From: Terrabacter sp. Ter38 | GTDB taxonomy: Bacteria > Actinomycetota > Actinomycetes > Actinomycetales > Dermatophilaceae | Reading direction: 5' to 3' | Length of the DNA stretch: 64,000 nucleotides | Assembly: GCF_024519435.1 (NCBI RefSeq) | Contig: NZ_JALJRZ010000003.1 | Coordinates: 310,001-374,000, forward strand | Part shown: one piece after another, positions 1-47,300 of the stretch | Layout of the letters: each line of letters opens with the position of its first letter | Position numbering within the stretch: the stretch's first letter is position 1 | Translations under genes and position numbers: made by a program | Notes under the pieces: generated by a model | Database searches by the model: none | What the model was told of the DNA's origin: nothing | Seen by the model: only the letters and a program-made list of their open reading frames with translations

Positions 1-58
1 AGGAGCGGGGATGGTCTACGGAGCCCTCGGCCGCACCGTCGAGGAGTACGCACGGTGA
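1..58 (+). CDS. C-terminal end of an unidentified protein (partial)
   Basis: Only the last 18 codons are inside the window, in the frame starting at base 2, ending in residues VEEYAR and a TGA at 56-58. The stop overlaps the GTG start of the next gene (GTGA, 55-58), so the two genes are probably translationally coupled and in the same EPS operon. The fragment is too short to assign a family; a glycosyltransferase would fit the context, but that is only a guess. Confidence 0.55.
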   Translation, partial: GAGMVYGALGRTVEEYAR

Positions 59-843
59 ATGTCACGACGAAGCGGGGGCCGGCGGCCGCCGCCAGACGAT
101 GGGTGCGTGGGCAGGGCTGGATGCTCGGTTCGGTCACGGGCACGACGGGCGCCTCCGTGGTCATCACCCTGGACGACGGACCCGACGAGGTCGAGACCCC
201 GAAGGTGCTCGAGGTGCTCGCCCGACACGAGGCCACCGCCACGTTCTTCGTGCTCGTGGGCCGTGCTCGGCGCCATCCACACCTGCTGACCCGCATCCGG
301 GATGCCGGCCATGAGATCGCGCTGCACGGCCCCGACCACCGGCCCCTGACGACGTTCGGCTTCACCGAGGCGCGGCGTCGCACCCGGGCCGCTCGCGCCG
401 AGCTCGAGCAGCTCGCCGGGGTGCCGGTGCGATGGTTCCGTCCGCCGTACGGCAGCCAGACGCCCGTGACCTGGGCCGCCACCAGGAGCGCCGGTCTCGT
501 GCCGGTTCTGTGGGACAGCACCACCTGGGACTGGAAGAACGTCACGCAGTCGGAACGCTTGGACAAGGCGATCGAGGGTGCCCGGCCGGGTGCCCTGCTG
601 CTCGCCCACGACGGGATCGCCGGAGCCGACGACGGCGTGACCGACGCGCCCCCGCCCCTGCTCGAACGGGCGGCGCTGCTCGACCAGGTGCTGGACGAGC
701 ACCGTCGCCGGGGTCTCCGAGGCAGGTCGCTGGGCTCGGCGCTGCAGGACGGCGCCCTCGTGCGCAGCATCGTCTTCACCGGAATACGACAAAACGGGCA
801 GGTAGAGCAGATGGCTAGCGACATGATAGGGAAACGTCGATGA
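55..843 (+). CDS. Polysaccharide deacetylase (NodB-like, carbohydrate esterase 4)
   Basis: A 262-residue protein with one NodB homology domain. Expected role: metal-dependent removal of N- or O-acetyl groups from surface polysaccharide or peptidoglycan sugars. All the motifs of the family can be seen: TLDDGPD at residues 38-44 with the catalytic and metal Asp (D40/D41), HGPDH at 91-95 with the two metal-binding His, RPPYG at 129-133, WDSTTWDW near 153-160 and LLLAHDG at 181-187 with the late catalytic His. There is no clear signal peptide, so the enzyme may be cytoplasmic or exported in another way. The GTG start at 55 overlaps the previous stop by 4 bases. It lies just upstream of a chain-length protein, which points to EPS modification. 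Confidence 0.88.
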   Translation: MNVTTKRGPAAAARRWVRGQGWMLGSVTGTTGASVVITLDDGPDEVETPKVLEVLARHEATATFFVLVGRARRHPHLLTRIRDAGHEIALHGPDHRPLTTFGFTEARRRTRAARAELEQLAGVPVRWFRPPYGSQTPVTWAATRSAGLVPVLWDSTTWDWKNVTQSERLDKAIEGARPGALLLAHDGIAGADDGVTDAPPPLLERAALLDQVLDEHRRRGLRGRSLGSALQDGALVRSIVFTGIRQNGQVEQMASDMIGKRR

Positions 844-892
844 GATCCGGAAACCACGAGCCGCAGTCCGGCCCGACGCCAGGAGGTTGGGG

Positions 893-2263
893 ATGGAGCA
901 TTCCAGCTACTGGTCACTGATCAAGCGCTACATCGTGCTCATCGTCGCCTGCAGCCTTCTTGGTGGTGCCATCGGGGCTTTCATGCAGCTGAAGGACGCC
1001 TCGGGCTACCTCGCCTCAGCTCGGGTCTTCGCCAACAGCAAGCGCGCCGACAACGTGGCCGTCTCGCAGTCCACCTCGCTGGCCGTCCAGCGGATGGAGA
1101 GCTACATCCGGCTTGCCAACAGCACACGTCTCGCCGATCGAGTGATTGCACGCCTCGGTGGCAACTCGAGCGCGGCAGCCATGGCCGACCGGATCTCGGC
1201 CACCCTCGACAAGGACACCGTCATCATGACGCTCAACGTCCAGGGGTCCACCCCTGACGAGGCTCGCCGGGTGATCGAGGTCCTGCCCTCCGAGTTCACG
1301 GCGCTCGTGAACCAGCTCGTGGACCTGCCCGTCACCAACGACAACGCGACCACCTTCACGATCGTCGACGGGCCCTTCGTCAGGAAGAACTCGTCGCTGA
1401 CCAAGCTCGTCGTCTCGACCGTGTTCGGTCTCATCCTGGGAGCCGCCATCGGGCTTGCCATCGCCTCGATCCGACTCAGGCGGATGGCCACCCGGACACC
1501 GCAGGGCGTGACCGGCATGACCGGGATGCCCGTCGTCGGCATCATCCCCGGGGGAGACCGGGGGAGGCGGAAGAACGACTCGATGCTGCCGGAGGGCCGC
1601 CGTCTTGCCTACCACCGGCTGGCCCGCAACCTCAGCCACCTCGCCACCACCAGGCATCGACTCGTCGTTGCGTGCTCGCCGGCCGGCGAGCCGTCAGCCA
1701 CCCCGACCGTCATCGGGCTGGCACGAGCGCTGGCCCAGCGCGGTGACGCCGTGCTCGTGGTCGACGCCTCGTTCAGCGGCCACGGCACGGCCGAGGCGTT
1801 CGAGGTGGCGTCGAACGGCAACGGGCTCGAGGCCGTCAAGGGGGTGCTGGGCCTCGACGAGGCCGTGACCAAGACCCCGTTCCCGAACCTGCGGTTGCTC
1901 CAGCTCGGCCACAGCCACGAAGAGCTGCTGGAGATCGGCGCCGGACACAAGCTCGCCGAGCTGCTCGACTACGCCCGGACGCAGTACGACACCGTGCTCG
2001 TCGACGCCTCCCCGGTGCTGTCCCAGGCGGACATCCCGACGGCCGTCGAGATCGCCGACTGCGTCATACTCGTCATCGACCAGTTCGAGACGCCGGCCGC
2101 CGAGACCCGGGCCGCCATCAACGGTCTCAGCGCCATGACCACCGCAGCCATCGGTATCGTGATCGACCGGGCCGTGAGCGCCAGCATGAGCCGCGTGCAG
2201 ATGGAGATCGGGCTGGTGCTCACGACTCCGGAGGAGTCAGAGGAAGCCCTGAGCCTGGGATGA
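893..2263 (+). CDS. Wzz/BY-kinase-like polysaccharide chain-length protein, kinase part degenerate
   Basis: About 456 residues. A short cytoplasmic N-terminus is followed by a membrane segment near residues 12-30, an extracytoplasmic Wzz-like region, a second membrane segment near 170-192, and a cytoplasmic P-loop-fold domain from about 240. This is the architecture of actinobacterial Wzz-BY-kinase proteins that control EPS chain length and export. The Walker A position reads SPAGEPSATP, without the GK[S/T] that binds ATP phosphate. The A' strand VLVVDASF and the Walker B strand DTVLVDASPV keep only the outline, and there is no C-terminal tyrosine cluster. I infer a structural rather than catalytic domain. 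The ATG at 893 is chosen because AGGAGG at 881-886 sits 6 bases upstream; a TTG at 887 would touch the ribosome binding site. Confidence 0.82.
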   Translation: MEHSSYWSLIKRYIVLIVACSLLGGAIGAFMQLKDASGYLASARVFANSKRADNVAVSQSTSLAVQRMESYIRLANSTRLADRVIARLGGNSSAAAMADRISATLDKDTVIMTLNVQGSTPDEARRVIEVLPSEFTALVNQLVDLPVTNDNATTFTIVDGPFVRKNSSLTKLVVSTVFGLILGAAIGLAIASIRLRRMATRTPQGVTGMTGMPVVGIIPGGDRGRRKNDSMLPEGRRLAYHRLARNLSHLATTRHRLVVACSPAGEPSATPTVIGLARALAQRGDAVLVVDASFSGHGTAEAFEVASNGNGLEAVKGVLGLDEAVTKTPFPNLRLLQLGHSHEELLEIGAGHKLAELLDYARTQYDTVLVDASPVLSQADIPTAVEIADCVILVIDQFETPAAETRAAINGLSAMTTAAIGIVIDRAVSASMSRVQMEIGLVLTTPEESEEALSLG

Positions 2264-2270
2264 GACGACC

Positions 2271-3797
2271 ATGAGCGACCCCCCACGCTACGGGCGGCAG
2301 GGCTCCTTGCCGTTCGCGACGTGGGGCGACCGGGCGGTGTCCCGGCGCTCCTTGCTGCGGGCGTTCGGTGGTGCGGTGGTGGTCGCCTCCGCGACCGCCG
2401 GCTGCCAGGGCGAGGCACCGGTGAGGGCCGGCGACTACACGGTTGCCAGGTGGGTGGCCGAGCGCGGCACTGGGTACCTGATCGGCCACCGTGGTGCCGG
2501 CGACGTCGTCCCAGAGCACACCCTGGAGGCCTACGAGGCCGCCCTCGGCTGGGGCGCCAAGGCCCTCGAGATCTCGGTCGTGCGGACCCTCGACGGCGTG
2601 CTGGTCTGCCAGCACGACCTCACGCTCGACCGCACCACCGACCTCTCCGGTACGATCTCGAAGCTGCCCTGGTCGCAGGTTCAGAACGCCCGGCTGCAGG
2701 TGCCACGACTCGGGCCACGCTGGTCGGGCGAGCGGGCGCCACGGCTGAGCCGCCTCGAGGACGTGCTGGCGAAGGTCGGCTCCCGAGCCGTCCTGTGCCT
2801 CGAGGCCAAGGACCACGAGGCCTACCCCGCCATGGTCGAGATGGTGGAGCAGCAACGGCTCAAGGAGTCGGCGGTGATCAAGCTGCACGTCAGCTCGACC
2901 CGGTTCGCCGAGGCCAAGGAGGCCGGCTACCCCGTGTTCGGCTACCTCGGCAGCTTCTTCGAGACCACGCCGGCCCGCATCAAGGAGCTGGCCGCCCGCC
3001 TCGACCCACGGACCGACTACCTCGTTGTTCCCAGCAACGAGAACGCCGAGTGGCTCCCGGACAAGCTGCTCGCCGCCGCCGTCGCGACGAAGGTGCCGGT
3101 CTGGGTCTTCGGGGTGCACCGACGCTCCGAGCTGGCCCACCACCTCGGCAATGGGGCCGCCGGGGCCGTCGTGTCGAGCATCGGCTACCTCGGGGGAACC
3201 ACGACCGCGCTGCGCGCCGACGTGTGGGAATCGGGCGCCATCTCACCGGGGGAGATGACGCACCGACCCGAGAGCAACGACTACGCCCTGGCCTGGCCGG
3301 GTGAGGGTGCGATCGGGTTGACGCTTGCCGACCGACAGTCGTTCGTGACGTTCGGCCAGCTCGCTCCGCTGCGTCAGCCGTCAGGCCCCTACGAGCTCTC
3401 GCTCGAGGTGCGAGTCGATCGCATGCCGACCCAGTCGTCCACGAACTTCACGGTCGCGTTCGGCCACGCCGACGACCGGTACTACGAGCACCGGCAGGGC
3501 ACCCAGAACGGCTACCACGCGCTGCTGCGCATGGACGGCAGCCTCGAGCTCTGGGCCCACGCCGCCGGGTCGCAGGACGGGGTGCCACTCGGCAAGCCGG
3601 TGTCCGGTGGTGCTCCCGTGGTCGGCACCTGGGTGCCGCTGCGACTGGTGGTCACACCGACGGCGCTCATCTGGACGAGGCTCGACACCGGCGCGAGCGT
3701 CACCGTCGCCGACTCGCGCTTCCGCGGAGACTACGTGCACGTGGGACGGTCCGCCATCGACGGCGCCCTGTCGGTGCGCCGACTACGAGTCGGCTGA
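2271..3797 (+). CDS. Tat-type lipoprotein with GDPD (glycerophosphodiester phosphodiesterase) and ConA-like domains
   Basis: 508 residues. The N-terminus has a twin-arginine signal (SRRSLL at 24-29), a hydrophobic stretch and a lipobox ATAGC with Cys45, so it is probably an exported lipoprotein. Residues 70-330 are a GDPD barrel: GHRGAG at 72-77, PEHT at 81-84 (usual PENT), ALEISV at 98-103 and QHD at 114-116. The usual metal-binding ExD reads E-I-S, so the Asp is Ser102. Residues about 345-508 look like a beta-sandwich of the LamG/concanavalin type. GDPD enzymes hydrolyse glycerophosphodiesters. In an EPS locus that also encodes a cytidylyltransferase and a CDP-alcohol transferase, the substrate may be a phospho-polyol on the polymer (inference). 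It follows the Wzz gene by 7 bases, and its end overlaps the convergent glycosyltransferase by 15 bases. Confidence 0.8.
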   Translation: MSDPPRYGRQGSLPFATWGDRAVSRRSLLRAFGGAVVVASATAGCQGEAPVRAGDYTVARWVAERGTGYLIGHRGAGDVVPEHTLEAYEAALGWGAKALEISVVRTLDGVLVCQHDLTLDRTTDLSGTISKLPWSQVQNARLQVPRLGPRWSGERAPRLSRLEDVLAKVGSRAVLCLEAKDHEAYPAMVEMVEQQRLKESAVIKLHVSSTRFAEAKEAGYPVFGYLGSFFETTPARIKELAARLDPRTDYLVVPSNENAEWLPDKLLAAAVATKVPVWVFGVHRRSELAHHLGNGAAGAVVSSIGYLGGTTTALRADVWESGAISPGEMTHRPESNDYALAWPGEGAIGLTLADRQSFVTFGQLAPLRQPSGPYELSLEVRVDRMPTQSSTNFTVAFGHADDRYYEHRQGTQNGYHALLRMDGSLELWAHAAGSQDGVPLGKPVSGGAPVVGTWVPLRLVVTPTALIWTRLDTGASVTVADSRFRGDYVHVGRSAIDGALSVRRLRVG

Positions 3798-4988
3798 GAC
3801 CAGCCGCTCGGTGGCGAGCGGGGCGTCGGCTCCGGGGCCGCCGTCGACCGCCTGCGCGACGGCGCGACGGTAGCGCTGGGGGGAGAATCGCTCTCCCGCG
3901 GGTTTGCGGGCCGCCTCGGCGCGCTCGACGAATCCGGGCCAGTCGGCGACGACCTGCGCCACGGCATCGGCAAGGGCCTCGGCGTCACCGGGTTCGACCA
4001 CGACGGCGCTCGCCACTCCGGCGACGGCCTCGGGCAGGCCGCCCGTGCGGCTGACAACGACGGGGCGCCCGGCCAGCACGGCCTCGACGGCCGTGTTCCC
4101 GAACGGCTCGGGCTGGGTCGAGGGGACGACGACGACGTCGTGGCTCTCGATGGTCTCCCAGACGGAGGATCGGAAGCCGAGGAACGACACGGCATCCACG
4201 TCGACGAGGTCGGCCGCCTGGGTGCGCAGGTCGCGCTCGAACCACTCGTAGCCGGCGAAGACGTCGCCGAGCAGCCCGATCGAGGCAGGGATGCCGCGTC
4301 CGCGCAGCTCGCGCACGGCGCGCACAGCGACGTCGGGACCCTTGCGCGGGGACAGTCGACCTACGAACAACAGACGGACCGTCCCGCCCAGGTCGGCGCG
4401 GGCCGGGCTGGAGTGGGACGAGTCGGGACCCGCGACCCCGTTCGGCACGACCTGGCTGCGCCCGGCCAGCCGTGGCAGGACGTCGGTGAGGACTCTGGCG
4501 GAGTACTCGCTGTTCGCGAGGACACGGTGGGCCGCAGCCAGGGGCCACACCATGCCGCGCTCGATCATGCCCGACGGGTGACGTTCGGCCTCGTGCACGT
4601 GGCACACGGTGCGTGCCTGGGCGAGCCGCCCGGCCAGCACCCACGAGGGGATGGTCTGGGTGCTCACGTAGACGGCCACGGGCCGCACCTCGCGCAGCAG
4701 GGCGGCCGTCGGCCCCGCGGAGCGCAGGAGGGTGGCGACGAGGGAGAGGAACCCGCGAGGTCGCAGGGCCGCCTTGCGCAGCACCGGCATGGCCAGCACC
4801 CGGCACTCGGCGCCGCGGTTCTCCAGCTGGGCGACGAGCGGACCGTCGGACGGAAGGGCGACGACGACGCGGTGACCCGACTCGACCAGACCCTGGACCG
4901 ACTCACAAAGCATCCGGTCCGACCCATAGAGCTCGGCCCCCGGGTGTGCGACAACGACGACCGGTCGGTTGTCGGCTGCGGGGCTCAC
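3783..4988 (-). CDS. Glycosyltransferase, GT4 / GT-B fold
   Basis: 401 residues. The N-terminal Rossmann half begins VVVVAHPGAELYGSDRML. The C-terminal half carries LLFVGRLSPRKGPD, then QPEPFGNTAVEAVLAGRPVV, the E-x7-E nucleotide-sugar binding motif of GT4 retaining enzymes. It should transfer a sugar from a nucleotide donor to the growing EPS repeat unit on the cytoplasmic face of the membrane. The GTG start at 4988 is chosen because it overlaps the TGA of the CDP-alcohol transferase gene (GTGA, 4985-4988); a longer reading frame upstream would lie inside that gene. It is the last gene of the minus-strand EPS block. Donor and acceptor cannot be told from sequence. Confidence 0.86.
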   Translation of the reverse strand: MSPAADNRPVVVVAHPGAELYGSDRMLCESVQGLVESGHRVVVALPSDGPLVAQLENRGAECRVLAMPVLRKAALRPRGFLSLVATLLRSAGPTAALLREVRPVAVYVSTQTIPSWVLAGRLAQARTVCHVHEAERHPSGMIERGMVWPLAAAHRVLANSEYSARVLTDVLPRLAGRSQVVPNGVAGPDSSHSSPARADLGGTVRLLFVGRLSPRKGPDVAVRAVRELRGRGIPASIGLLGDVFAGYEWFERDLRTQAADLVDVDAVSFLGFRSSVWETIESHDVVVVPSTQPEPFGNTAVEAVLAGRPVVVSRTGGLPEAVAGVASAVVVEPGDAEALADAVAQVVADWPGFVERAEAARKPAGERFSPQRYRRAVAQAVDGGPGADAPLATERLVSADS

Positions 4989-5725
4989 GCGGCGTCCGGG
5001 GAGAGGTCGACGTCGCGAAACCATTTCGGCAACCCGAGCACGAGGTAGCCGAGGCTGCCGAGCAGCAGCAGCCCGTACACGGCGACGAACGCGTTGGGGA
5101 GGCCCCACAGCACGAACACGACGCAGAGCAGGCCGTAGTCGGTCGGAATGACGACGATGGAGCGCAGGGTGGACGCCGGCTCATCCTTCGTGGCGCCCCG
5201 GCCCCCCTGGTTGCGCTTCAGCTGGTCGGTGAGGACGAAGGTGAAGAAGAGCATGTTCGCCACGAGCAGGAAGAGCATCGGCAGGAGGCTGACGGCGGAG
5301 TCCCCGAACGTGCGGTGAACACCAAGAAGCACCGCCAGGTGCAGGGCGGTGATCTTCGCGCAGTCGACCACGTGGTCGAGCCACTCACCTGACGGTGCAC
5401 CCGAGCCGCGGAGGCGGGCGAGCTGCCCGTCGGCGGAGTCGAACGCGTAACCCACAGCGAGCAGCAGAGCTACGAGGATGCCGAGGGGGACAGATCGCGG
5501 CAGCGCACCGACGAGCAGGATGCCGGTGAGGGAGAAGCCGGCGCTGATCGCGGTGACACCGTTCGGGGTCAATCCCGCGTGGTATGAGGCGGCCGCGAGC
5601 ACGCGGCCCGCAGGCCGGTTCACGAACCGCGAGTACGCGGGCGCTCCGCGGTTTGGCTTCTGGTGGCTGCGCAGCCGGTCGACGGTCTCGCCGAGCGTCT
5701 CGGTGGAACCTTCTCTAGCGGTCAC
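4985..5725 (-). CDS. CDP-alcohol phosphatidyltransferase family membrane enzyme
   Basis: 246 residues, with several hydrophobic helices. The full family signature DxxDGxxAR-x8-GxxxDxxxD is present: D96, D99, G100, A103, R104, then G113, D117 and D121. These Asp bind two metal ions and the CDP-alcohol. Enzymes of this family move a phospho-alcohol group from CDP to an acceptor hydroxyl in the membrane. The next gene upstream encodes a TagD-like cytidylyltransferase that could make the CDP-alcohol, so the product may be a phosphodiester-linked polyol on a lipid or EPS intermediate. The GTG at 5725 is preferred over a TTG 15 bases further upstream because a GGGGG stretch lies 7-9 bases before it. 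The stop overlaps the following GT gene by 4 bases. Confidence 0.85.
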   Translation of the reverse strand: MTAREGSTETLGETVDRLRSHQKPNRGAPAYSRFVNRPAGRVLAAASYHAGLTPNGVTAISAGFSLTGILLVGALPRSVPLGILVALLLAVGYAFDSADGQLARLRGSGAPSGEWLDHVVDCAKITALHLAVLLGVHRTFGDSAVSLLPMLFLLVANMLFFTFVLTDQLKRNQGGRGATKDEPASTLRSIVVIPTDYGLLCVVFVLWGLPNAFVAVYGLLLLGSLGYLVLGLPKWFRDVDLSPDAA

Positions 5726-5805
5726 GTGATCTGCCCCCAAAGGCGTGGTGTCGCTGGTCGCCGGATGATGACCGTGCGAGAACTCAATGTCTGCAGCGAC
5801 CTTGG

Positions 5806-6240
5806 TCAGGAAGCCGCAAGGAAGTTGCGCAGGATCGTGCTCGACGTCTCGCGGGTGTAGGGGAAGTAGACGACCTCGACCCCGACGTCCCCGAATCGCC
5901 GCTCGAGCTCGATTCCCTTGCGCGTGCCCTTCCAGTCATCGCCCTTGAAGAAGATGTCGAACTTCAGCTCCGACCAGGTCTCGAGCTTGTCGGGAACGGT
6001 CTCGGCGTGCACCTGGTCGACGAACCGGATGTGGTCGACGATCTCCAGCCGCTCGGAGAGAGGGACGACGGGACGTCGCCCCTTGGCGAGTTCGGCCATC
6101 TCGTCGGATACGACGCCGGCGATGAGGTGGTCGCACTGCGACCTGGCCATCCGCAGGATGTTCAGATGCCCGATGTGAAAGAGGTCGTAGACCCCCGGCG
6201 CGTACCCGACGCGCGCGTCTTTACCCACCATGTCCCCCAT
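5806..6240 (-). CDS. Glycerol-3-phosphate cytidylyltransferase-like (TagD family) nucleotidyltransferase
   Basis: 144 residues, a single small nucleotidyltransferase fold. The start of the domain reads YAPGVYDLFHIGHLN, with the HxGH motif at residues 22-25 that binds the CTP triphosphate; TSSTILR near the end stands for the RTEGISTS motif. Length and motifs fit TagD, which makes CDP-glycerol from CTP and glycerol 3-phosphate. Related small enzymes use other polyol phosphates, so the substrate is open. It is followed, after 80 bases, by a CDP-alcohol transferase that could use its product. The ATG at 6240 has GGGGGC 9-14 bases upstream; another ATG at 6231 is possible. There are 106 bases between it and the acyltransferase gene upstream, room for a separate promoter. 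Confidence 0.83.
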   Translation of the reverse strand: MGDMVGKDARVGYAPGVYDLFHIGHLNILRMARSQCDHLIAGVVSDEMAELAKGRRPVVPLSERLEIVDHIRFVDQVHAETVPDKLETWSELKFDIFFKGDDWKGTRKGIELERRFGDVGVEVVYFPYTRETSSTILRNFLAAS

Positions 6241-6346: not shown

Positions 6347-8554
6347 TCACTCGGCCAGGGCCGGAGCAACGGCCGCGGCGAACACCGTGCCCAGCATCTG
6401 TGCCGCGCGCATCGTCAGGTGGGTCGAGTCGGTGCGCAGCATCGTGTCGCCGGCGAACGCGGGGCACCGGCCGTCGGGGGTGCAGAACCAGGCGCGCACG
6501 TCGACGGACGTCACCGACCGCTGGCCGAAGCTCGCCCGGGTCTCGGCCACCGCGGCCGCGGTGGCGGCGGCCGCCTCGTCGGTCAGCTCACCCCGATGGC
6601 TGAGGCAGCGCGAAGGGCCCCCGACACGCGATAGGCAGGTCGCCGGGTCGTCGACGCGTGGTGGCGCGCCGAGGACGACGACGTCGGTGTCGAGACGGGA
6701 CAGCGCCGTCAGGGTGGCCGCCGTCCCGCGCTGCCACTCCGCCTGGGCGGCCGAGCCGGTGGCGCCGCTGTCGAGGTAGAGCAGCGAACCCTCCGAGGAG
6801 GACACCACGACGAGATCGGGCTGGAGCCGACCGACCTCGTCGAGCATCCGCTGTCTCGCGTCACGGCACTGGGCTGGGAAGCGGGAGTTCGCCGCCCGCT
6901 GGTTGACGTCGACCGCGACGAGCGGGCAGCTCGCATAGCCCAGTGACACGACGCGCCAGCCCTGCGGCACGAGGGCTCGTTCCAGCGTGGGTGCCCACGA
7001 GAGCGCAACCGAGTCGCCGACCAGCACGGCAGTGCGGGTGGCCGCGGTGGTGCCGCCCTCGCAGGTGCGGGGGATGCCGGGCGAGGCGACGTCGTTGCGG
7101 CATCCGGTTGGCGCAAGTGACATCTGGGGCGGTGCCTGGGCAGCGGTCAGCTCGTCGGCCGACGGCGAGAGGTTCGGCCAACTGGTGGCATCGGCCGCCT
7201 GCGCGATCATGGCCTGCAGGCGAGCGGCCTGCGGCTCGCCCGTCGTCGGGAAGGTGCGCTGGGGCGCCGAGCGGCCCAGCGCGTCGAGGGCGGCCGCGGA
7301 CGAGCGCACGAGAGCCGGCCCCTTCAGCTGCACGCCGATCATCCCGACGATGAGCACCGCGACGCCCGCGGCGACGACCACGTCCAGACGCAGCGGGCCT
7401 GGTGCGGCACGGTGTGCCCGGAAAGGCGTCTCTACCCACCGCTGGGACAGGACCGAAACGCCGATGCTCATCATCAGGAGCACCAGACCTGCGAAGACGG
7501 AATCGCCCAGCAGCACCGCCCCGAAGATGCCGATCGGGAAGTGCCACAGGTAAAGGGAGTAGGAGATCCGCCCGGCGAACTGCAGGGGGGCCAGCCCGAG
7601 CAGCCTTGCCACCGGGCCGTTCTCATCCCGCGCCCAGATCACGACGACGGTGCCGAGCACGGGTACGAGCGCCCACGGATAGGGAAAGCTGGAGCCGGTG
7701 TCGAGGGTGAACGCGGCCGCGAACACAGCGACGAGCCCGAGCAGTCCGATCGCGGCGAGGCGCCCCCGGTGACGTCCGTCGTCTGGACGTCGGCGGGATG
7801 CTGTGGACGTACCGACGGCGACGAGCGCACCTGCCGCCACCTCCCAGGCACGTCCGACGCTGTCGAAGTACGCGACGCTGGGGTCGCGTGCCTGCCGGTA
7901 GGCGGCAACGGCAAGGGAGGCCAGGGCAACCAGGCCCAGGGCGACGAGCAGGAGTCGCCGTCGTGCGGGAGCCTCCCACCGGCGCGACACCCAGAGCAGG
8001 ACCATGAGCAGCAGGGGCCAGACGATGTAGAACTGCTCCTCGACGGCGAGGGACCAGTAATGCTGCACCGGCGACACGGCGTCTGCTGCCTGCAGGTAGT
8101 CCGTGCCCATTGCGATCAGGTGCCAGTTACCGACGAAGGCCGCGGCGGCGGCGGAGTCGAGGAGCGTCTGAGTCGCTCGTGGCGTGGGCCATAGAGCGAA
8201 GGCGGCCACAACCGTGACGAGCAGGACGAGGGTGCCGGCCGGCAGGATGCGACGGGCGCGCTGGCCGTAGAAGGCGGTGAGGCTGACCCGACCGAACCGG
8301 CGTTCACCACGCAGCAGGATGCCGGTGATGAGGTAGCCGGAGATGACGAAGAAGACATCGACCCCGATGTAGCCCCCCGCGGGCAGCCGGAAGAAGTGGC
8401 CCAGCACCACGATCAGCACCGCGATGGCGCGCAGGCCCTCGATGTCGCGCCGGAAGGTGCTGGTGCCTCGGGCCTCGGGGTCGACAACGGTCGACGACCG
8501 TGCAGGCCCTGACCGGTCGGGGCGTGTGCGCGCGCGAATCACGTTGATGCTCAA
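6347..8554 (-). CDS. Acyltransferase-3 membrane protein with C-terminal SGNH domain
   Basis: About 735 residues. The first 400 contain roughly ten hydrophobic helices and the acyltransferase-3 signatures RDIEGLRAIAVLIVVLGH (catalytic Arg/His region) and GVDVFFVISGYLI. After a last membrane segment and linker comes a periplasmic-side SGNH domain: VLVGDSVALSW (block I) and DSTHLT near the end (catalytic Asp/His, block V). Such two-domain proteins (OatA-like) carry acetyl groups across the membrane and place them on sugars, so O-acetylation of the EPS is likely. The start is uncertain: TTG at 8554 overlaps the methyltransferase stop (TTGA) and has GGGAAG 8 bases upstream, and GTG at 8542 is in frame. 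Reading further upstream would run through the methyltransferase gene. Confidence 0.87.
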   Translation of the reverse strand: MSINVIRARTRPDRSGPARSSTVVDPEARGTSTFRRDIEGLRAIAVLIVVLGHFFRLPAGGYIGVDVFFVISGYLITGILLRGERRFGRVSLTAFYGQRARRILPAGTLVLLVTVVAAFALWPTPRATQTLLDSAAAAAFVGNWHLIAMGTDYLQAADAVSPVQHYWSLAVEEQFYIVWPLLLMVLLWVSRRWEAPARRRLLLVALGLVALASLAVAAYRQARDPSVAYFDSVGRAWEVAAGALVAVGTSTASRRRPDDGRHRGRLAAIGLLGLVAVFAAAFTLDTGSSFPYPWALVPVLGTVVVIWARDENGPVARLLGLAPLQFAGRISYSLYLWHFPIGIFGAVLLGDSVFAGLVLLMMSIGVSVLSQRWVETPFRAHRAAPGPLRLDVVVAAGVAVLIVGMIGVQLKGPALVRSSAAALDALGRSAPQRTFPTTGEPQAARLQAMIAQAADATSWPNLSPSADELTAAQAPPQMSLAPTGCRNDVASPGIPRTCEGGTTAATRTAVLVGDSVALSWAPTLERALVPQGWRVVSLGYASCPLVAVDVNQRAANSRFPAQCRDARQRMLDEVGRLQPDLVVVSSSEGSLLYLDSGATGSAAQAEWQRGTAATLTALSRLDTDVVVLGAPPRVDDPATCLSRVGGPSRCLSHRGELTDEAAAATAAAVAETRASFGQRSVTSVDVRAWFCTPDGRCPAFAGDTMLRTDSTHLTMRAAQMLGTVFAAAVAPALAE

Positions 8555-9189
8555 TTGGTTCGCTTCCCGACGACGTGATGGCCGCCCGGCTGTCGGGCCT
8601 GCGTCGCCGGCGGTGCCACGTAGAACGCGAGAAAGGTGGACGACCAGGGCGAACCGACGACCCGGGTGCCCTTTGGGAGCAGCGCCTTGAACTCGGAGAG
8701 GCTCAGCAGCCGGGTGAACTCCGACCGCCTGCGCCGCCACTGAGGGAGCCAGTGCAGCAGCACGGTGGCGGTGTGTGACTCCATGGGGAACCAGCGGTTG
8801 GGGGTTGTGATGACCCAGCTGCGCCCGACCCTCGACTGCTCCTGGACGAACCGCCGCTGGTCCTCTATGCCACCCACATGCTCGATCACGGCCTGGGCCA
8901 CGATGAAGTCGGTCTGGCGGTCGGCGAACGGAAGGGATCGTCCGTCCGCGCGCACGAACGGCCACTCGAGCGCTGGGCACGCCAGCACGTCGACGGCGGC
9001 GAGAACCCTCGACTGCTGGGCCACCGACCGCTCGACGATCATCTCGTTGACGTTGCTACCGGGGCTGCAGCCGACGAAGATCACGTCAGAGACGCCCACC
9101 TCCTGCATGAACGCCCGGATGGTCCGGGCCTTCTTCGTGCGGCTTCGCACGCTGAAGGCGAGCACGGCGTGGCGCAGGTGACGATTCAC
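8551..9189 (-). CDS. SAM-dependent methyltransferase (class I)
   Basis: 212 residues. VIFVGCSPGSNVNE at about 36-49 is the glycine-rich SAM-binding loop; VRADGRSLPFADRQTDFIVAQAVIEHV is the region that holds the second-strand acidic residue and the catalytic-side strand typical of methyltransferase type 11/25 proteins. In an EPS cluster it probably methylates a sugar or the end of a chain, where methylation can stop growth. The GTG start at 9189 has AGGAA about 6 bases upstream. The gene sits 8 bases after the DUF1972 glycosyltransferase and overlaps the acyltransferase start by 4 bases, so the three are one operon. Confidence 0.82.
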   Translation of the reverse strand: MNRHLRHAVLAFSVRSRTKKARTIRAFMQEVGVSDVIFVGCSPGSNVNEMIVERSVAQQSRVLAAVDVLACPALEWPFVRADGRSLPFADRQTDFIVAQAVIEHVGGIEDQRRFVQEQSRVGRSWVITTPNRWFPMESHTATVLLHWLPQWRRRRSEFTRLLSLSEFKALLPKGTRVVGSPWSSTFLAFYVAPPATQARQPGGHHVVGKRTN

Positions 9190-9197
9190 GGCTGTTC

Positions 9198-10547
9198 CTA
9201 GGTGAGCGAGGACGGCTGCGTGTTGGCCGCGGCCGTGTCAGGCGACGGCCCCGCCCCTTCACCGGCCGGTCCATGAACCCTCGCAGCGGACACGTCGAGA
9301 TCGGGCGGGGGGACGGGCGTGACACTGGTTCGTGCAGCGGAAGGGGCGTGGCCGATGACATCGCTGGAGGTCACGGCGAGGGAAGGCCGACGACGTCGGC
9401 GCTGCGGTCCGCTCGTCTCGCGCGCGGCCAGCGCGAAAGCGAGATTCTCGTACTCGTCGGCGACGCGGTCCCAATCGTAGTCACGGGCCCGCCGACGCAG
9501 CCGGTCGCCGCGTTCGTTGGTGAGGTCATCGAAGAACTCGGCGTCGGCCAGCAGTTCGGGCAGGTCGTCGGCCTCGAGGAAGTAGCGACCCTCCTCTCGC
9601 AGAACCTCGCGGTTGAAGTCGACGCCGTAGGCGATGGTGGGGGCGCCGGCGCCGATGGCACGCAGCAGCGACGGGTTGGTGCCGCCGACCGAGTGGCCGT
9701 GGAGGTAGGTGAGAGCGTTGCCGTAGAGTTGGTCGAGCAGCTCCTGATCGTAGATGCCGCCGACGAGACGCACGCGCGTATCGTGACCGGCCAGCCTCCG
9801 TACCTTGGCGATGTACTCGTAGGCGTAGGGGGCGGACCCCACGACGACGAGCGGCTTCTCGGCCGAGCTGCGCACGTAGCCCTCGACGATGACATCAACG
9901 TGGTTCTCAGGCTCGAAGCGGGCGACGACGAGGTGGTACTGGCCCGGCCGTACGTCCATCTCGAGCAGCCGGTCGGAGCCGACGTTCTCGAGAATCGGCG
10001 CCCCGTAGGCGATCAGCTCGGTCAGGGCGCCGAACTCGCGGTCGTAGTAGTCGGCGATGCCCTGCGCATCAGCGATGAGCGCGTCGGACAGCCGCACGCT
10101 CATCTCCTCGGCGCGGCGGTAGTAGTTCCGACCGGCCTGGCCCCATTTGGCGCGCTTCCATTCCAGGCCGTCGACGTGCGTCGCCACCGGGATGCGGGCG
10201 GCTCGAAGCGCCGGCAGAAACGGCGCGTTGGCCGCATTGAAGACGAAGGCGACGTCGGTGCGGTGAGCGAGCAGGTGCATCGTGGAGACACCGGTGTGCG
10301 CAAGCGTATCGAGCGTGCGTCGCCTCAGTGTCGGTAGCGTGACGAGTTCCATCCCGAGGTGTGAGGTCAGGTGCTCCTCGACGTTACCCTCGCGGCAGTA
10401 GACCCGCACGTGATGGCCGCGAGCGGCGAGGCGCCTGCCCACCTCCTCCACGGCTGTCTCGAAGCCGCCATATCGTGCCGGCACACCCCGCGTACCGAGC
10501 ATCGCGATCGAAAGCCGCGCGTCATGTACCCCGCGTTGACCCACCAT
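9198..10547 (-). CDS. DUF1972 family glycosyltransferase (rhamnosyltransferase-like)
   Basis: 449 residues. The N-terminus IAMLGTRGVPARYGGFET is the typical DUF1972 signature found in WchF/Cps2T-type enzymes, which add L-rhamnose to the first lipid-linked sugar of capsule repeat units. GTNPSLLRAIGAGAP near residue 285 is the donor-binding loop of the C-terminal GT-B half. The last 75 residues, rich in Pro, Arg and Ser, are low-complexity and probably disordered. The ATG at 10547 has GGGGGA about 7 bases upstream. It is the first gene of the minus-strand EPS block, which makes it the likely second transferase after the polyprenyl-phosphate sugar transferase encoded at 16.3-17.8 kb. Rhamnose as donor is inferred from the family; no dTDP-rhamnose genes are in view. 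Confidence 0.85.
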   Translation of the reverse strand: MVGQRGVHDARLSIAMLGTRGVPARYGGFETAVEEVGRRLAARGHHVRVYCREGNVEEHLTSHLGMELVTLPTLRRRTLDTLAHTGVSTMHLLAHRTDVAFVFNAANAPFLPALRAARIPVATHVDGLEWKRAKWGQAGRNYYRRAEEMSVRLSDALIADAQGIADYYDREFGALTELIAYGAPILENVGSDRLLEMDVRPGQYHLVVARFEPENHVDVIVEGYVRSSAEKPLVVVGSAPYAYEYIAKVRRLAGHDTRVRLVGGIYDQELLDQLYGNALTYLHGHSVGGTNPSLLRAIGAGAPTIAYGVDFNREVLREEGRYFLEADDLPELLADAEFFDDLTNERGDRLRRRARDYDWDRVADEYENLAFALAARETSGPQRRRRRPSLAVTSSDVIGHAPSAARTSVTPVPPPDLDVSAARVHGPAGEGAGPSPDTAAANTQPSSLT

Positions 10548-10769: not shown

Positions 10770-14504
<3,735 letters not shown>

Positions 14505-14537
14505 GATGTCAGACGCATCCGCCAGAGGAGGAAATCA

Positions 14538-15107
14538 GTGAAGGCTTGGTCTGCTCAACCCGCGAGGCGCGTGGCCGTCGTCGGCATCGCCGCGCTCGGC
14601 GCCGTGTCGCTGCTCGGCGGGTGCGGTTTCGAGACGCGCCAGCAGGCTGCCGCCGTCGTCAACGGCGAGGTCATCCACGAGTCCGACGTGCGGGAGACGT
14701 ACGACCAGCTCAAGGCGGCCAAGCTCGACTTCGCCGAGAACATCGTCGTCACAGCGCTCGTGGCGGCGCCGCTGCTCAAGGACGCCGTCGAGAAGTCCGG
14801 CAGCTGGAAGCCCGACGAGACGTACGCCTCGGTCATCTCCTCGATCCCCGACGCCACCGACACGACGAAGGAGTTCGTCGCCGCGGTCGCCCTCATCCAG
14901 TCGCAGAAGATGACACCCGCCGACGTCGCCGCCTACCGCGCGGACCTCAAGAAGGCCGACATCAGCGTCAACCCCAAGTACGGCTCCGTCGTGCCGTCCG
15001 CCGAGGGGCCCGTCTACTTCACCATCGGCCAGCAGACGCCCAACTGGGTCAAGCCGGGCGGCAACACCGCCCCGGCCACCGCCCCGGCCACCGCCCCGGC
15101 CCAGTAG
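14538..15107 (+). CDS. SurA N-terminal-like lipoprotein
   Basis: 189 residues. A basic N-terminus and hydrophobic stretch end in the lipobox LLGGC (Cys about 30), so this is a membrane-anchored exported lipoprotein. AAVVNGEVIHESDVRETYDQLKA just after the anchor is typical of the SurA/PrsA N-terminal chaperone module; no prolyl-isomerase (parvulin) domain follows. It may bind unfolded exported proteins, but this is inference. The C-terminus is a short repeat (APAT three times) made of a 12-base DNA repeat near 15069-15104. The GTG start is fixed by AGAGGAGG 6-13 bases upstream. In mycobacteria a different lipoprotein (LpqU) occupies a nearby slot in the mfd-mazG-eno block. Confidence 0.78.
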   Translation: MKAWSAQPARRVAVVGIAALGAVSLLGGCGFETRQQAAAVVNGEVIHESDVRETYDQLKAAKLDFAENIVVTALVAAPLLKDAVEKSGSWKPDETYASVISSIPDATDTTKEFVAAVALIQSQKMTPADVAAYRADLKKADISVNPKYGSVVPSAEGPVYFTIGQQTPNWVKPGGNTAPATAPATAPAQ

Positions 15108-15126
15108 ACCTCAGCAGCCCTCCGTC

Positions 15127-16101
15127 GTGACCGCCCGCGTCGTCCTCCTCGTCACGACCCCACGCATCGCTCCGGGTCTGCTGACCCGTGAGGCGTGGCA
15201 GAGCCTCGCGGGGGCCCATGCCGTGTGGGGCCGTCCCGACGAGCCGCAGGTTGCCGCGCTCGTCGAGGCCGGCATCACGGTGCTTCCCCGTGGGGACGGT
15301 CACCCGGCCGACCTCGCTCGCGACCTCGTCTCCGCCTCCCAGGGGGGTGACGTCGTCTGGGTCGGCTCGTCCGACGGTGACCCCGGTCTCAGCGACTCGA
15401 TCGCCGTGGAGGTGACGCGGTTGCCCGAACCGCCTGAGGTGGAGCTGCTCATCGGCTCCTTCGACGTCCCCGGTGCGCGGCTGCTGGACGTCGTCGCCGT
15501 CATGGACCGGCTCCGCTCGCCGGGCGGCTGCCCCTGGGACGCCGAGCAGACCCACGAGTCGCTCGTGCCCTACCTCCTCGAGGAGGCGCACGAGGCGATC
15601 GAGGCCATCGAGAGCGGCGACCCGGCGCACATGCAGGAGGAGCTCGGCGACCTGCTGCTGCAGGTCGCCTTCCAGTCACGGGTGGCGCAGGAGCACCCGA
15701 GCGAGCCGTTCGACATCGACGACGTCGCCGGTGCGCTCGTCGACAAGCTCGTCCGACGACACCCGCACGTCTTCTCCGACATCGAGGCCGACACGGCCGA
15801 CGCCGTCGAGGCCAACTGGGAGTCGATCAAGGCCGACGAGAAGCAGCACCGCAGGCACCCGGTCGAGGGCGTCCCGAGCTCGCTGCCGGCCCTGGCCCGG
15901 GCCGAGAAGTACGTCTCGCGCCTGCGTCGGGCGGGCCGCGAGGACCTCGTCGACGATGCCGTCGCGCGTGGCGGGCTCGGCGCGCAGCTGCTCGACCTGG
16001 TGCGCCGGGCACGGGACGAGGGCATCGACGCAGAGAGCGCCCTTCGCCGGACGCTCGCCCAGCTCGAGCAGCACAGCGCCGAGGCACCGCGTCGCGGGTG
16101 A
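15127..16101 (+). CDS. mazG: Nucleoside triphosphate pyrophosphohydrolase MazG
   Basis: 324 residues. MazG hydrolyses NTPs and dNTPs to monophosphate and pyrophosphate, cleaning damaged nucleotides. The core starts with MDRLRSPGGCPWDAEQTHESL at about 126-146, followed by LLEEAHEAIEAIE (the metal-binding EExxE helix) and EELGDLLLQVAF (ExxD helix). The signature VEANWESIKADEK ends the domain. The N-terminal 120 residues look like a worn-down remnant of the tetrapyrrole-methylase-like domain found fused to MazG in other bacteria. The GTG start lies 19 bases after the lipoprotein gene with no good Shine-Dalgarno. Confidence 0.93.
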   Translation: MTARVVLLVTTPRIAPGLLTREAWQSLAGAHAVWGRPDEPQVAALVEAGITVLPRGDGHPADLARDLVSASQGGDVVWVGSSDGDPGLSDSIAVEVTRLPEPPEVELLIGSFDVPGARLLDVVAVMDRLRSPGGCPWDAEQTHESLVPYLLEEAHEAIEAIESGDPAHMQEELGDLLLQVAFQSRVAQEHPSEPFDIDDVAGALVDKLVRRHPHVFSDIEADTADAVEANWESIKADEKQHRRHPVEGVPSSLPALARAEKYVSRLRRAGREDLVDDAVARGGLGAQLLDLVRRARDEGIDAESALRRTLAQLEQHSAEAPRRG

Positions 16102-16151
16102 GGTCCGCCGTCCGGCGACGACGCCACCCGTGCTCGCGGAGGGGCACGGGA

Positions 16152-16187
16152 TCGGCGACGTCCGGTCAGGGGGGTGAACGTCGCCGA
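16152..16187. terminator. Hairpin between the convergent mazG and sugar transferase genes
   Basis: TCGGCGACGT (16152-16161) and ACGTCGCCGA (16178-16187) form a perfect 10-bp stem with a 16-base loop; GGG before and CCCC after extend it with a bulge. There is no T-tract. The place between two convergent stops suggests a two-way terminator. Confidence 0.5.
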
Positions 16188-16270
16188 CCCCGCATTCGGG
16201 TGGCGCTGGTGCGCGCCGCCCGGGTGCGAGGGCGGTTGAGGGACCACGTCCTCGCTGCTCGTGGGATCGG

Positions 16271-17764
16271 TCAGTACGCGCCGCGTGAGGCGAAGACGGC
16301 TCGGACGGTGCGCACCAGGATGGAGAGGTCTTGCACGGGTGACCAGTTGTCGACGTAGTAGAGGTCGAGGCGGACCGTGTCGTCCCAGGACAGGTCGCTG
16401 CGACCGGACACCTGCCAGAGACCCGTGAGTCCCGGCCGCACGTGCAGCCGCCGTTGGACGTCCGGCTCGTAGCGGCGCACTTCCGACGGGAGCGCAGGCC
16501 GCGGGCCAACCAGGCTCATGTCACCGTTGATGACGTTGAACAGCTGCGGCAGCTCGTCGATGGAGAAGCGGCGCATGATGGAGCCGACGCGGGTGATCCG
16601 AGGGTCGTCCTTGGCCTTGAAGAGCACGCCTTCCGGATTCTTGTTCAGGTGGCTGACGCCACTCAGGCGAGCCTCGGCGTCCACGACCATGCTGCGGAAC
16701 TTGAGGCACTCGAACAGCTCGCCGTCACGGCCGACCCGGATCTGGCGGAACAGCACGGGGCCGCCGTCATGGATCTTCGTCAGGATCGCGAAGACGAGCA
16801 TGACGGGCGAGGCGAGGGCGAGAGCGGTGCTGGCACCGACCATGTCGAAGATGCGCTTGAAGCTGCGGGAGGCCGCGAGGCTCTGCGGCTGTTCGACGTG
16901 GACCAGCGGGAGGCCTCCAACCGGACGCATGGCCATCCGCTCGGAGGAGATGTCGTTGAGACTGGGCGCCACCGCCATCTGGACGTCGTGGCCCTCGAGG
17001 TCCCAGGCGATGTGCCGGAACTCCTGGGGTGAGGAGAACGCGCCGCCGGTCAGCAGCACGAGGTCGGCATCAGATGCGAGCGCCTCGGACGCCGTGTTCT
17101 CCGTCGAGCCGATCACGGCCACACCACCGGGCGTCAGGGTGCCCGGAGCAAGGTCGGGCAGCAGGGCCCCGATGACCCGGTAGCCCAGCCACCGCTCGCG
17201 GTCGAGCACCCGAGCCACGTCATCGACGTGCGACGCGGCACCGGAGAGCAGGACCCGAGTGAGCAACAGGCCCCGGTCGTGCAGCCGGTAGATGATCCGT
17301 CGTGCCGACCAGCGCCAGAGGAGCAGGAGCGGGACGCCGATGAGGAACAGCTGCACGAAGAAGGCCCGCGACAGGTCGGCCTTGGTGAGGTAGCTCGTGA
17401 TGCCGATGAGGCCGGCGGTGATGCCCGCCGCACTCAGCACCCGCGCATACTCGCTCGAGCCCACCCCCAGGTGCGACTGCGCGTAGCTGCCGCGCAGGAT
17501 GTTGGCGAGCATCCATGCCATCACGACCCAGGGCCCCACGGACATGGCTGCTTCGTCGACGTCGTTCGTGCGCGGGAAGACCGGCGAGGCGAAGTGCCCC
17601 ACGCCCGCCACAGCCACGACAACGGCGATGATCACGGTGTCGCCGAGTGCCAGCCCCAGCTGCAGCAGACGGTGTTCCCGAGCTCGGTCGCTGGCCGTGT
17701 GCGTTCGAGGACGCGCACTGACTCCGAGCAGCAAAGCCCTTGGTTCGCGCATGGGAACACCCAT
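16271..17764 (-). CDS. Polyprenyl-phosphate sugar-1-phosphate transferase (WbaP/EpsY-type)
   Basis: 497 residues: four to five N-terminal membrane helices, a central Rossmann-like CoA-binding-type domain (about 150-270), a further membrane helix near 310, and the C-terminal bacterial sugar transferase domain. The last has FKRIFDMVGAS, KFRSMVVDAEARL, PRITRVGSIMRRFSIDELPQL and DMSLVGPRPALPSEV, the full catalytic signature. It should transfer hexose-1-phosphate from a UDP-sugar to undecaprenyl phosphate, the first step of EPS repeat-unit synthesis. It lies on the minus strand between mazG and eno, away from the EPS cluster at 1-10.5 kb, and breaks a usually conserved gene order. It has no copy of the GTATGCCG octamer common around it. 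The start is the ATG at 17764; GTG codons at 17773 and 17770 are alternatives. Confidence 0.9.
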   Translation of the reverse strand: MGVPMREPRALLLGVSARPRTHTASDRAREHRLLQLGLALGDTVIIAVVVAVAGVGHFASPVFPRTNDVDEAAMSVGPWVVMAWMLANILRGSYAQSHLGVGSSEYARVLSAAGITAGLIGITSYLTKADLSRAFFVQLFLIGVPLLLLWRWSARRIIYRLHDRGLLLTRVLLSGAASHVDDVARVLDRERWLGYRVIGALLPDLAPGTLTPGGVAVIGSTENTASEALASDADLVLLTGGAFSSPQEFRHIAWDLEGHDVQMAVAPSLNDISSERMAMRPVGGLPLVHVEQPQSLAASRSFKRIFDMVGASTALALASPVMLVFAILTKIHDGGPVLFRQIRVGRDGELFECLKFRSMVVDAEARLSGVSHLNKNPEGVLFKAKDDPRITRVGSIMRRFSIDELPQLFNVINGDMSLVGPRPALPSEVRRYEPDVQRRLHVRPGLTGLWQVSGRSDLSWDDTVRLDLYYVDNWSPVQDLSILVRTVRAVFASRGAY

Positions 17765-19442
<1,678 letters not shown>

Positions 19443-44197: not shown

Positions 44198-44343
44198 CGC
44201 CCCGATATCACCGATTCAGAATGAGTTCGGGGGGTTTTCCGGACATGTGACGTGTTCCTCAATACCTTGGGCCGAGGGATGGCGTGGCGGACACGGCCCG
44301 CGCAGGGAACGGGCACACGACACGCCCCCTCATGGGGAGAATC

Positions 44344-47300
44344 ATGGTGCGCAAGTCGATTCGTCGTGCCCTCGGAGCCGGTCTCACCTCGCTCCTCGTC
44401 GTCGTGGGAGCGTTGGCCGGCCAGTCGCCTGCGTATGCCGCGGACCCCGATCCCGGTGTCGACCGCGTCGTCGCGCTCCTGGGTGGTAGCGGAGGCACGC
44501 GGAACCTCGCCGCCTGGACCTCCGGGCTCGCCGACATCGGCGCACTCGGGAAGCCGATCCCCTTCGTGTCGGCGAGCCCCGGTGGCCTCGCCGGCGCCGA
44601 CGACCTCATCGACAAGGGCGTGGCCCCGGCCCTCGCCGGGACGACGACGTGGGCCGGCCTCGCGACGTCGGGCGAGTCGGTCGCCCTGCCCGGAGGCCGC
44701 GCCGGGACGCTCGACGTCTCCGTCGACGACCTCGGCGACGGCAAGCGCGTCCACGTGAACCTCGTCGTGACCCGGACGGCCACCCAGCAGGCGCTCGCCG
44801 TCAGCTCCACGAGCCCCAAGGTCGAGCTGTCCTCACCCAAGGGGGTCACGGCCACCGTCGAGGCCACGCTCTCGCTCTGGGTCGTCTGGACCGGACCCAC
44901 GACCAACCGCGTCTATCTCGCCAGCGACACGGCCCACGCGCCGCGGCTCGACGTCGACGTCACGGCACAGCTGTCCGGCTCCGCCAAGGCGGCCGTGGGC
45001 ATCCTCGGCGTCACGCTCAAGAGCACGGACTTCACGGTCAAGGCCCACGCGTACGCCCGTGTCAACGACCCGAACAACGACGGGATCCTCGCCTTCGACG
45101 CGGCCGGGGTCGGCGACGGCGAGCTCGCCGCGGACGGCTCCCTGGCCGGCCTCGCCTCGGCCGACCTCGACCCGACGGGCTCGCCCTCGGACCCCGGCAC
45201 GCCGGGCTCGGTCAGCGGCACCCTGTCGGTCGCCGCGGACACGAGCGGCATCGCCGGTGTCAGCTTCCCGGCCAACGTCGCCGCCGACGTCACCCTGACG
45301 TGGCCGAACATCTCGACGGGCACGCCGACCGTCTCGGCGCCGAGCCTGGCCACCCTCGTCGGCAGGTTCCAGAACATGAGCCTGCGCGACCTCGCCGACG
45401 GCCTCGCGCAGGTCGCGGTCGCCCTCACCGGCATCCAACAGGCGAAGTTCGACCCCGACGGTGCCGGGCCCCTCCCGACGACCGGCAACCTCGACCTGCC
45501 GTTCCTGCGCGGCACCGTGTCCGACGCCATCAAGGCGAACCAGGTCCTCGTCGACTTCCTCAAGGCCAACGTCGTCCAGCAGCCCGACCCCGACCAGCCG
45601 ACGCCGCCGGGGTTCGACGCGACGACCGTCGGCAACCCGACTTTCGACTCGCTCCAGGACCTCATCGGCAAGCTCAAGGCAGCCGGCATCGGCCTCGACG
45701 ACCTCGCGTGGGACCCGACGACGAGCAAGCTCGTCTTCCGCATGCGGATGGTCAAGGCGGCACCCGACACCGGCGTCGCCATGGACGCCGGCAGTGCCCG
45801 TACGTCCCGGCCCACGGCGACGTATGCCGCCACCGGCCTCACGCTCGACGACGGCACCCAGCCCTGGCAGGCGAACCAGTGGACGGGCATGCGCGTCATG
45901 GCCGGCACGTCCGCCGGAGAGATCGCCTCGAACACCAAGAACGCGCTGACCCTCTCAGGTCCCTGGATCGGCGGGCAGCCTTCTGCCGGGACGCCATTCG
46001 TCATCGTCGGTCCGGAGGCACAGCTCGGGGCCGTGACCTTCGGTGACCGACTGACCGACCAGCCCGTCGCCGGTGGGCCGCGCCGCGGGATCCTCCGGGC
46101 GAACTCCGCCCAGACCTTCGCCACCGTCAAGCCGTCGTTCGCGGCGGACCTGACCCTCGTCCTCGACCTGCAGGATGCCCGCACCGGCGCCGCGTGCATC
46201 GGCTTCGAGGGCAACACGAAGGCCTGCCCCTTCCTCCAGACGACCGGGGCCTTCAAGACCAACGTCACCTCGCTCCCGCTGGGCGCCGACCGCGTGCTCA
46301 TCCGCACCGGCAGTCCACTGCTCACGGCCGACTTCCCGATCGACACCGCGGTCGACTTCACCGCCAACGCCGGCTTCTTCCAGGTGCGCCTCAAGGGACA
46401 CCTCGCGGTGTGCAACAGCGATGCGCCCGCCGGCTGCTCGGCCCCCGGCTCGGGGCACATGCTCTCGATCGGCCTCAAGCAGGCCGGAGATGCCCAGCAC
46501 GACATCCGCCTGCGCCAGCTCTTCGACCAGCTCGTCACGGCGAGCCCGACCGGGCCGAGCAAGGCCGGTGACCTGCTCGACGTCGACGTCAACGTCCGTG
46601 CCACCGCAGACCTGTCGGCCTCGATCCCCGAGGCCGACGGCTTCCTGCCTGCCGGCACCGACGTCGGCGTCTCCGCCTCGTGGAACGACCTGACCCAGCT
46701 CACCGGGACCGACGGTCCGCAGCTGGACCTCAGCCGACTGAGCCGGATCTTCGCGCTCGACATCAAGCCGGGCTCGCAGGCGGAGCTCTTCGCGATCGTG
46801 CTCAAGACCCTCCAGACCCTCGCCGCCCAGCTCGCCGACGCCCAACCCGGCGGCGCGTCGGGCGTCTACAGCCGCGAGATCCCCGGCATCGGCACGTCCC
46901 TGCGCGACCTCATGCAGCGCGACTCGTCGGGTGTCGGCAGCGACGTCAACTACGGCACGAACACCCTCCAGCACGTGGGCCGCACGTTCGACGCGTCCTT
47001 CGTCGGACGCACCGTCATCGTCGGCACCCAGGTGGCCGTCGTCGCGTCGGTCGCGGGTGACACGGTCACCCTGACCGAGAACTGGACGACCAAGCCGGCC
47101 GACGACACCGCATACACCTTCCGCTCGCCCCTCGACGACGCCATCGACATCATGTCGGTGCACCCGCCGCAGAACATGCAGGACCTCGTCGCGTTCCTCG
47201 ACGAGCGACTCGGCACGGGCGCGCTGCACTTCCGCTACCTCGACGACGGCGGGACGCCGAGCGTCGTGCTCGACCTCGACTGGAAGCGCGACTACCAGAC

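Follow-up and report, generated by a model that had tools for sequence, protein, structure and literature searches.

In the eukaryotic choline/ethanolamine phosphotransferases, CHPT1 and CEPT1 among them, a polar phospho-alcohol is transferred from CDP to a lipid hydroxyl in a pathway that includes an HxGH cytidylyltransferase, and the mark of these enzymes is a Glu/His pair within the motif D..DG..AR..GE..DH..D. In Xenopus CHPT1 the same pair is Glu129/His133, whose Ala mutants are nearly inactive, and it is absent from most bacterial CDP-APs (PMC10182977). Enzymes of this class II combine a polar CDP donor with a lipophilic acceptor (PMC10156783). On the side of donor synthesis, the signature RTEG(I/V)ST(S/T) is common to GCT, ECT and CCT, and in CCT its Arg is stacked against cytosine (PMC6060094). 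A CDP-linked small acid has also been suggested to donate the head group of a membrane lipid in the Caulobacter CpgD route to ceramide diphosphoglycerate (PMC12275187), which has a sphingolipid acceptor and a cytidylyltransferase fold unrelated to that of TagD (PMC13228409).

The locus studied here lies in a window of 64,000 nucleotides (the whole stretch of DNA analysed, positions 310001-374000 of contig 33; genome of 4.83 Mb in 54 contigs) and comprises the following genes.

55-843, plus strand: polysaccharide deacetylase
887-2263, plus strand: Wzz-like chain-length protein with a BY-kinase-like domain (Wzz match just under cut-off)
2271-3797, plus strand: GDPD-like lipoprotein, an optional gene outside the core module (RR and ATAGC lipobox recognised by eye)
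3783-4988, minus strand: GT4 glycosyltransferase (GT), downstream of CDPAT
4985-5725, minus strand: CDP-alcohol phosphotransferase (CDPAT), 246 aa (Pfam CDP-OH_P_transf, 33 bits, cut-off 22)
5806-6240, minus strand: TagD-like cytidylyltransferase (hereafter TagD), 144 aa, with FHIGH and GDDW motifs (Pfam CTP_transf_like, 57 bits)
6347-8554, minus strand: Acyl_transf_3 and SGNH O-acyltransferase, upstream of TagD (start uncertain, 8554 being taken from the codon-GC caller)
8551-9189, minus strand: methyltransferase (Methyltransf_11)
9198-10547, minus strand: DUF1972/GT4 glycosyltransferase resembling the Cps2T rhamnosyltransferase (GTB)
16271-17773, minus strand: priming sugar-phosphate transferase (Bac_transf PF02397 and CoA_binding_3), separated from the genes above by mfd and further housekeeping genes

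The GTG start of the GT4 gene overlaps the CDPAT stop, and the plus-strand block of deacetylase, Wzz/BY-kinase-like and GDPD-like genes converges on the minus-strand EPS genes, the 3' end of the lipoprotein gene overlapping GT4 by 15 bp. To the left of the window edge lie a Wzy_C-like protein (just under cut-off), a flippase (Polysacc_synt) and two GTs. With a PF02397 priming transferase, flippase, Wzy_C and Wzz all present, the EPS locus is a complete one of the Wzx/Wzy type, broken up by mfd and other housekeeping genes. The genes on which the initial annotation had built its proposal, namely the TagD-like enzyme with its FHIGH motif, CDPAT, GT4, the acyltransferase and the convergent GDPD-like lipoprotein, are all where it had placed them. 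Within 10770-17773, the EPS genes are separated from the PF02397 transferase by mfd and by genes for a SurA-like lipoprotein and a MazG-like protein (names assigned by eye). Elsewhere in the window (44284-54879), a 3531-aa ORF with a signal-like N-terminus probably encodes a giant surface protein.

CDPAT (E <= 1e-20) and then TagD were searched in the same 297 genomes of the order. CDPAT was detected in 66 genomes and TagD in 67, each in 29 genera, and 65 genomes contained both (Fisher p = 4e-62, without correction for phylogeny), which bears out the conserved co-occurrence that the initial annotation had proposed to look for. Since conservation of both genes extends over dozens of genera and 65 of 66 genomes have them together, chance does not account for their association. 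Of 64 pairs compared, 63 shared a contig, with the two genes at most 1.5 kb apart in 23 of them, 20 kb in 57 and 36 kb in all 63. TagD and CDPAT are thus a near-obligate pair. Strong GTB matches were found in 42 of the 297 genomes, 39 of which have CDPAT; among the genomes without strong GTB, 26 have both TagD and CDPAT, one has CDPAT alone, two have TagD alone and 226 have neither, so the pairing goes beyond mere linkage to EPS genes. The exceptions included G068, with CDPAT and no TagD, and G088, with TagD (72% identity) and no CDPAT. No strong CDPAT match was detected in the 8 other species of the genus, and the two genes are accessory.

In a comparison of 80 public CDPAT loci, nearly all actinobacterial, the gene immediately upstream of CDPAT was a same-strand GTB relative in 39; TagD adjoined CDPAT in 26, and a GT4 relative stood immediately downstream on the same strand in 18. 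Over about 35 loci the neighbours were mostly GTs, followed by Wzz, Wzx, PF02397, Wzy_C and beta-helix proteins, and those found across genera were GT4, DUF1972 GT, Wzz, Wzx, Wzy_C and PF02397 proteins. Among the 25 families most often found as neighbours there was neither a lipid-synthesis family nor a recurrent enzyme for the supply of a special polyol phosphate, the lack of the latter hinting that the alcohol comes from a housekeeping metabolite. Co-occurrence, synteny and the fused proteins described below all support the earlier proposal of a single pathway, located in EPS loci, to which both enzymes belong. A search restricted to the open literature, without subscription papers, turned up no account of a TagD/CDPAT pair in EPS loci.

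The CDPAT motif in the window, DSADGQLARLRGSGAPSGEWLDHVVD, conforms to the PF01066 pattern D1xxD2G1xxAR...G2xxxD3xxxD4 and carries the Glu and His of the class II pattern G2ExxD3HxxD4, as do 94 of 95 homologues; the extended motif D..DG..AR..GE..DH..D is likewise found in 94 of the 95. GExxDH is absent from the genome's five other CDP-OH_P proteins, in which DP, DS or DM replaces the DH of CDPAT. This class II motif, missing from the five paralogues, supports transfer of a polar phospho-alcohol and makes a role in phospholipid housekeeping unlikely. The AlphaFold model (pLDDT 91.5) has the six-helix membrane fold of CDP-alcohol phosphotransferases and matches AF2299 (Z 18.6) and IPCT-DIPPS (17.7) most closely, followed by PIPS (15.7) and CHPT1 (12.6; range for CHPT1/CEPT1, 10.6-12.6). 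As modelled, CDPAT is therefore nearest in fold to archaeal enzymes, with an active-site pair like that of eukaryotic ones. AF2299 has GAWLDG where CDPAT has GExxDH, and DIPPS is fused to its own cytidylyltransferase, IPCT, which is of another type than TagD. CHPT1 and CEPT1 share the extended motif with CDPAT but are larger (364-387 versus 246 aa) and belong to lipid synthesis, whereas CDPAT is bacterial, sits in an EPS locus and probably has another acceptor. CDPAT has the signature of enzymes that move a polar phospho-alcohol onto a lipophilic acceptor, in keeping with the transfer to a membrane acceptor suggested initially, and its partnership with TagD supports a polar CDP donor.

TagD retains HxGH, the catalytic lysine (K53) and GDDW. 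Its model has B. subtilis GCT as the best PDB match (E 9e-12, TM 0.78/0.88), and it shares with TagD/GCT (1COZ, 2B7L) the fold, these three elements and about 30% identity. Unlike GCT, it has PYTRETSST (pattern PYTxxTSST) in place of RTEG(I/V)ST(S/T), with Tyr at the position of the signature Arg in 50 of 51 sequences, and it scored 69 bits against the curated TIGR01518 model, below the cut-off of 165.4. In sequence comparisons TagD is about as close to ECT as to GCT and the Fom1 CyTase. The Fom1 CyTase (5X3D), third among the profile matches, has HxGH, GDDW and PYT...SST in common with TagD (27% identity) but forms part of a fusion with PEP mutase and has a phosphonate as its substrate. Judged by these motifs, TagD is a separate cytidylyltransferase subfamily without the signature common to GCT, ECT and CCT, and its assignment to CDP-glycerol synthesis in the initial annotation is not established. 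Use of CTP is still likely because Fom1 also has PYT...SST, and TagD is predicted to join CTP to a small alcohol phosphate, forming a CDP-alcohol. The other PF01467 proteins of the genome are three matches elsewhere. No match to TagF (PF04464, CDP-glycerol glycerophosphotransferase) was detected in the genome, in which control searches were positive, and CDPAT is thus the only evident consumer of the CDP-alcohol. Ordinary teichoic acid synthesis was rejected since TagF is missing. In another genome of the genus (G003), a different locus, L159 (5324-11044), contains two CDP-OH_P proteins (DCVDGE.. and DCSDGE..) alongside an ABC transporter pair and a GT, and its TagD has GDDW and PRTPSVSTT; the locus resembles a TagGH-associated Streptomyces locus (PMC13118837) and seems to be missing from the genome of the window.

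We consider it fairly probable that TagD and CDPAT together serve as a CDP-alcohol transfer module in Wzx/Wzy EPS synthesis, placing a phospho-alcohol on the undecaprenyl-linked repeat unit before flipping. Judging from the family to which it belongs and the catalytic residues that are conserved, the cytosolic TagD-like enzyme would combine CTP with a common phospho-alcohol, glycerol phosphate being a first guess and inositol phosphate, phosphoethanolamine or another compound being possible. At the inner leaflet, Glu114 and His118 of CDPAT would activate a hydroxyl on a lipid-anchored acceptor, as the class II motif suggests, so that the phospho-alcohol is attached and CMP released. From the genomic context, we infer that the acceptor is most likely an undecaprenyl-diphosphate-linked oligosaccharide whose synthesis the PF02397 transferase and the Cps2T-like GT initiate. 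GTs would then complete the unit, Wzx flip it and Wzy polymerise it, with the acyltransferase, and perhaps the GDPD-like lipoprotein, acting outside. Counting against this reading, the acceptors known for class II enzymes are diacylglycerols and not lipid-linked glycans, the fold of CDPAT is closer to AF2299 and archaeal IPCT-DIPPS than to CHPT1/CEPT1, and TagD does not have the signature shared by GCT, ECT and CCT. The position of the group in the polymer may differ: it is possible, if rather doubtful, that the class II CDPAT inserts a phospho-polyol into the undecaprenyl-linked unit, that GT4 glycosylates the polyol and that Wzy polymerises the product, giving a TagF-independent, teichoic-acid-like polymer with a phosphodiester in the EPS backbone.

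The same enzymes might instead serve a Kennedy-type synthesis of phospholipid or glycolipid, TagD supplying CDP-ethanolamine or CDP-glycerol and CDPAT acting on diacylglycerol to form a special membrane lipid or polymer anchor. The characterised GExxDH enzymes do act on diacylglycerol (PMC10182977, PMC10156783), and human ECT matches TagD about as well as bacterial GCT does. We nevertheless regard this as unlikely, given the accessory distribution of the genes, their position among GT, Wzx, Wzy and Wzz genes with no common lipid-synthesis neighbour, and the five other CDP-OH_P proteins already available in the genome. The plainer reading of CDPAT as an ordinary phospholipid synthase, which would have overturned the initial annotation, was rejected on its accessory nature, EPS context and class II motif.

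Loading of polyprenol or polyprenyl phosphate by CDPAT, yielding a lipid-linked phospho-alcohol that is flipped to become an outer-face donor or primer, would agree with a lipophilic acceptor and with a locus built on the undecaprenol pathway; a PF02397 priming transferase is already there, an acceptor of this kind is not known to us for any CDP-alcohol phosphotransferase, and we consider this improbable. Still less probable is the production of a soluble di-polyol phosphate stress solute, as by archaeal IPCT-DIPPS: AF2299 and the A. fulgidus IPCT-DIPPS are the closest folds to CDPAT, but the EPS context in the sampled lineages, the class II Glu/His pair and the lack of a recurrent solute partner gene among the 25 commonest neighbour families argue against it. 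The likeness of TagD to the Fom1 CyTase, a maker of CMP-phosphonate, in profile rank and PYT...SST could point to transfer of a phosphonate rather than a phosphate, a reading that we find scarcely credible and rejected because PEP mutase is missing from the genome.

A conserved module and the direction of its chemistry, as first proposed, are therefore retained, and CDP-glycerol as the product and the role given to GDPD are not. The GDPD-like lipoprotein has E-I-S in place of the E-x-D in the GDPD pattern HRG...E-x-D...H; the replaced Asp is a canonical acidic ligand among the catalytic and metal residues. E-x-S is common to its full-length relatives, PEHT replaces PENT, and a long C-terminal part has no Pfam match. 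Strong matches occur in only 2 of the 297 genomes, one being that of the window, and a fixed place in the module was rejected on this count. Relatives over most of its length were found in few CDPAT loci (L038/L047, L049, L078, L090 and G125/L141), and it may be an optional surface partner, for which canonical activity should not be assumed.

Our results suggest an undescribed way of adding phosphate groups to bacterial surface polysaccharides, encoded in actinobacterial sugar-coat loci. If correct, a common actinobacterial gene pair adds phospho-alcohols to surface polysaccharides by Kennedy-type chemistry, and phosphorus is predicted in many EPS. To our knowledge, such a route lies outside the known ways involving TagF, LicD or phosphatidylglycerol. 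GExxDH together with PYTxxTSST provides a sequence signature for finding such loci, with two testable genes.

A strict search for fusions, requiring a single ORF in which both HxGH and GExxDH are intact, returned none, and a looser search found degenerate ones. These come from the same genus, one from each of two species (L145, 4414-5808; L146, 5220-6758, minus strand), and consist of a single frame in which a degenerate TagD domain is followed by an intact CDPAT. The fused domain has neither HxGH nor GDDW, and an intact TagD is encoded just downstream of the fusion in both loci; the dead domain may hold the active TagD through dimerisation.
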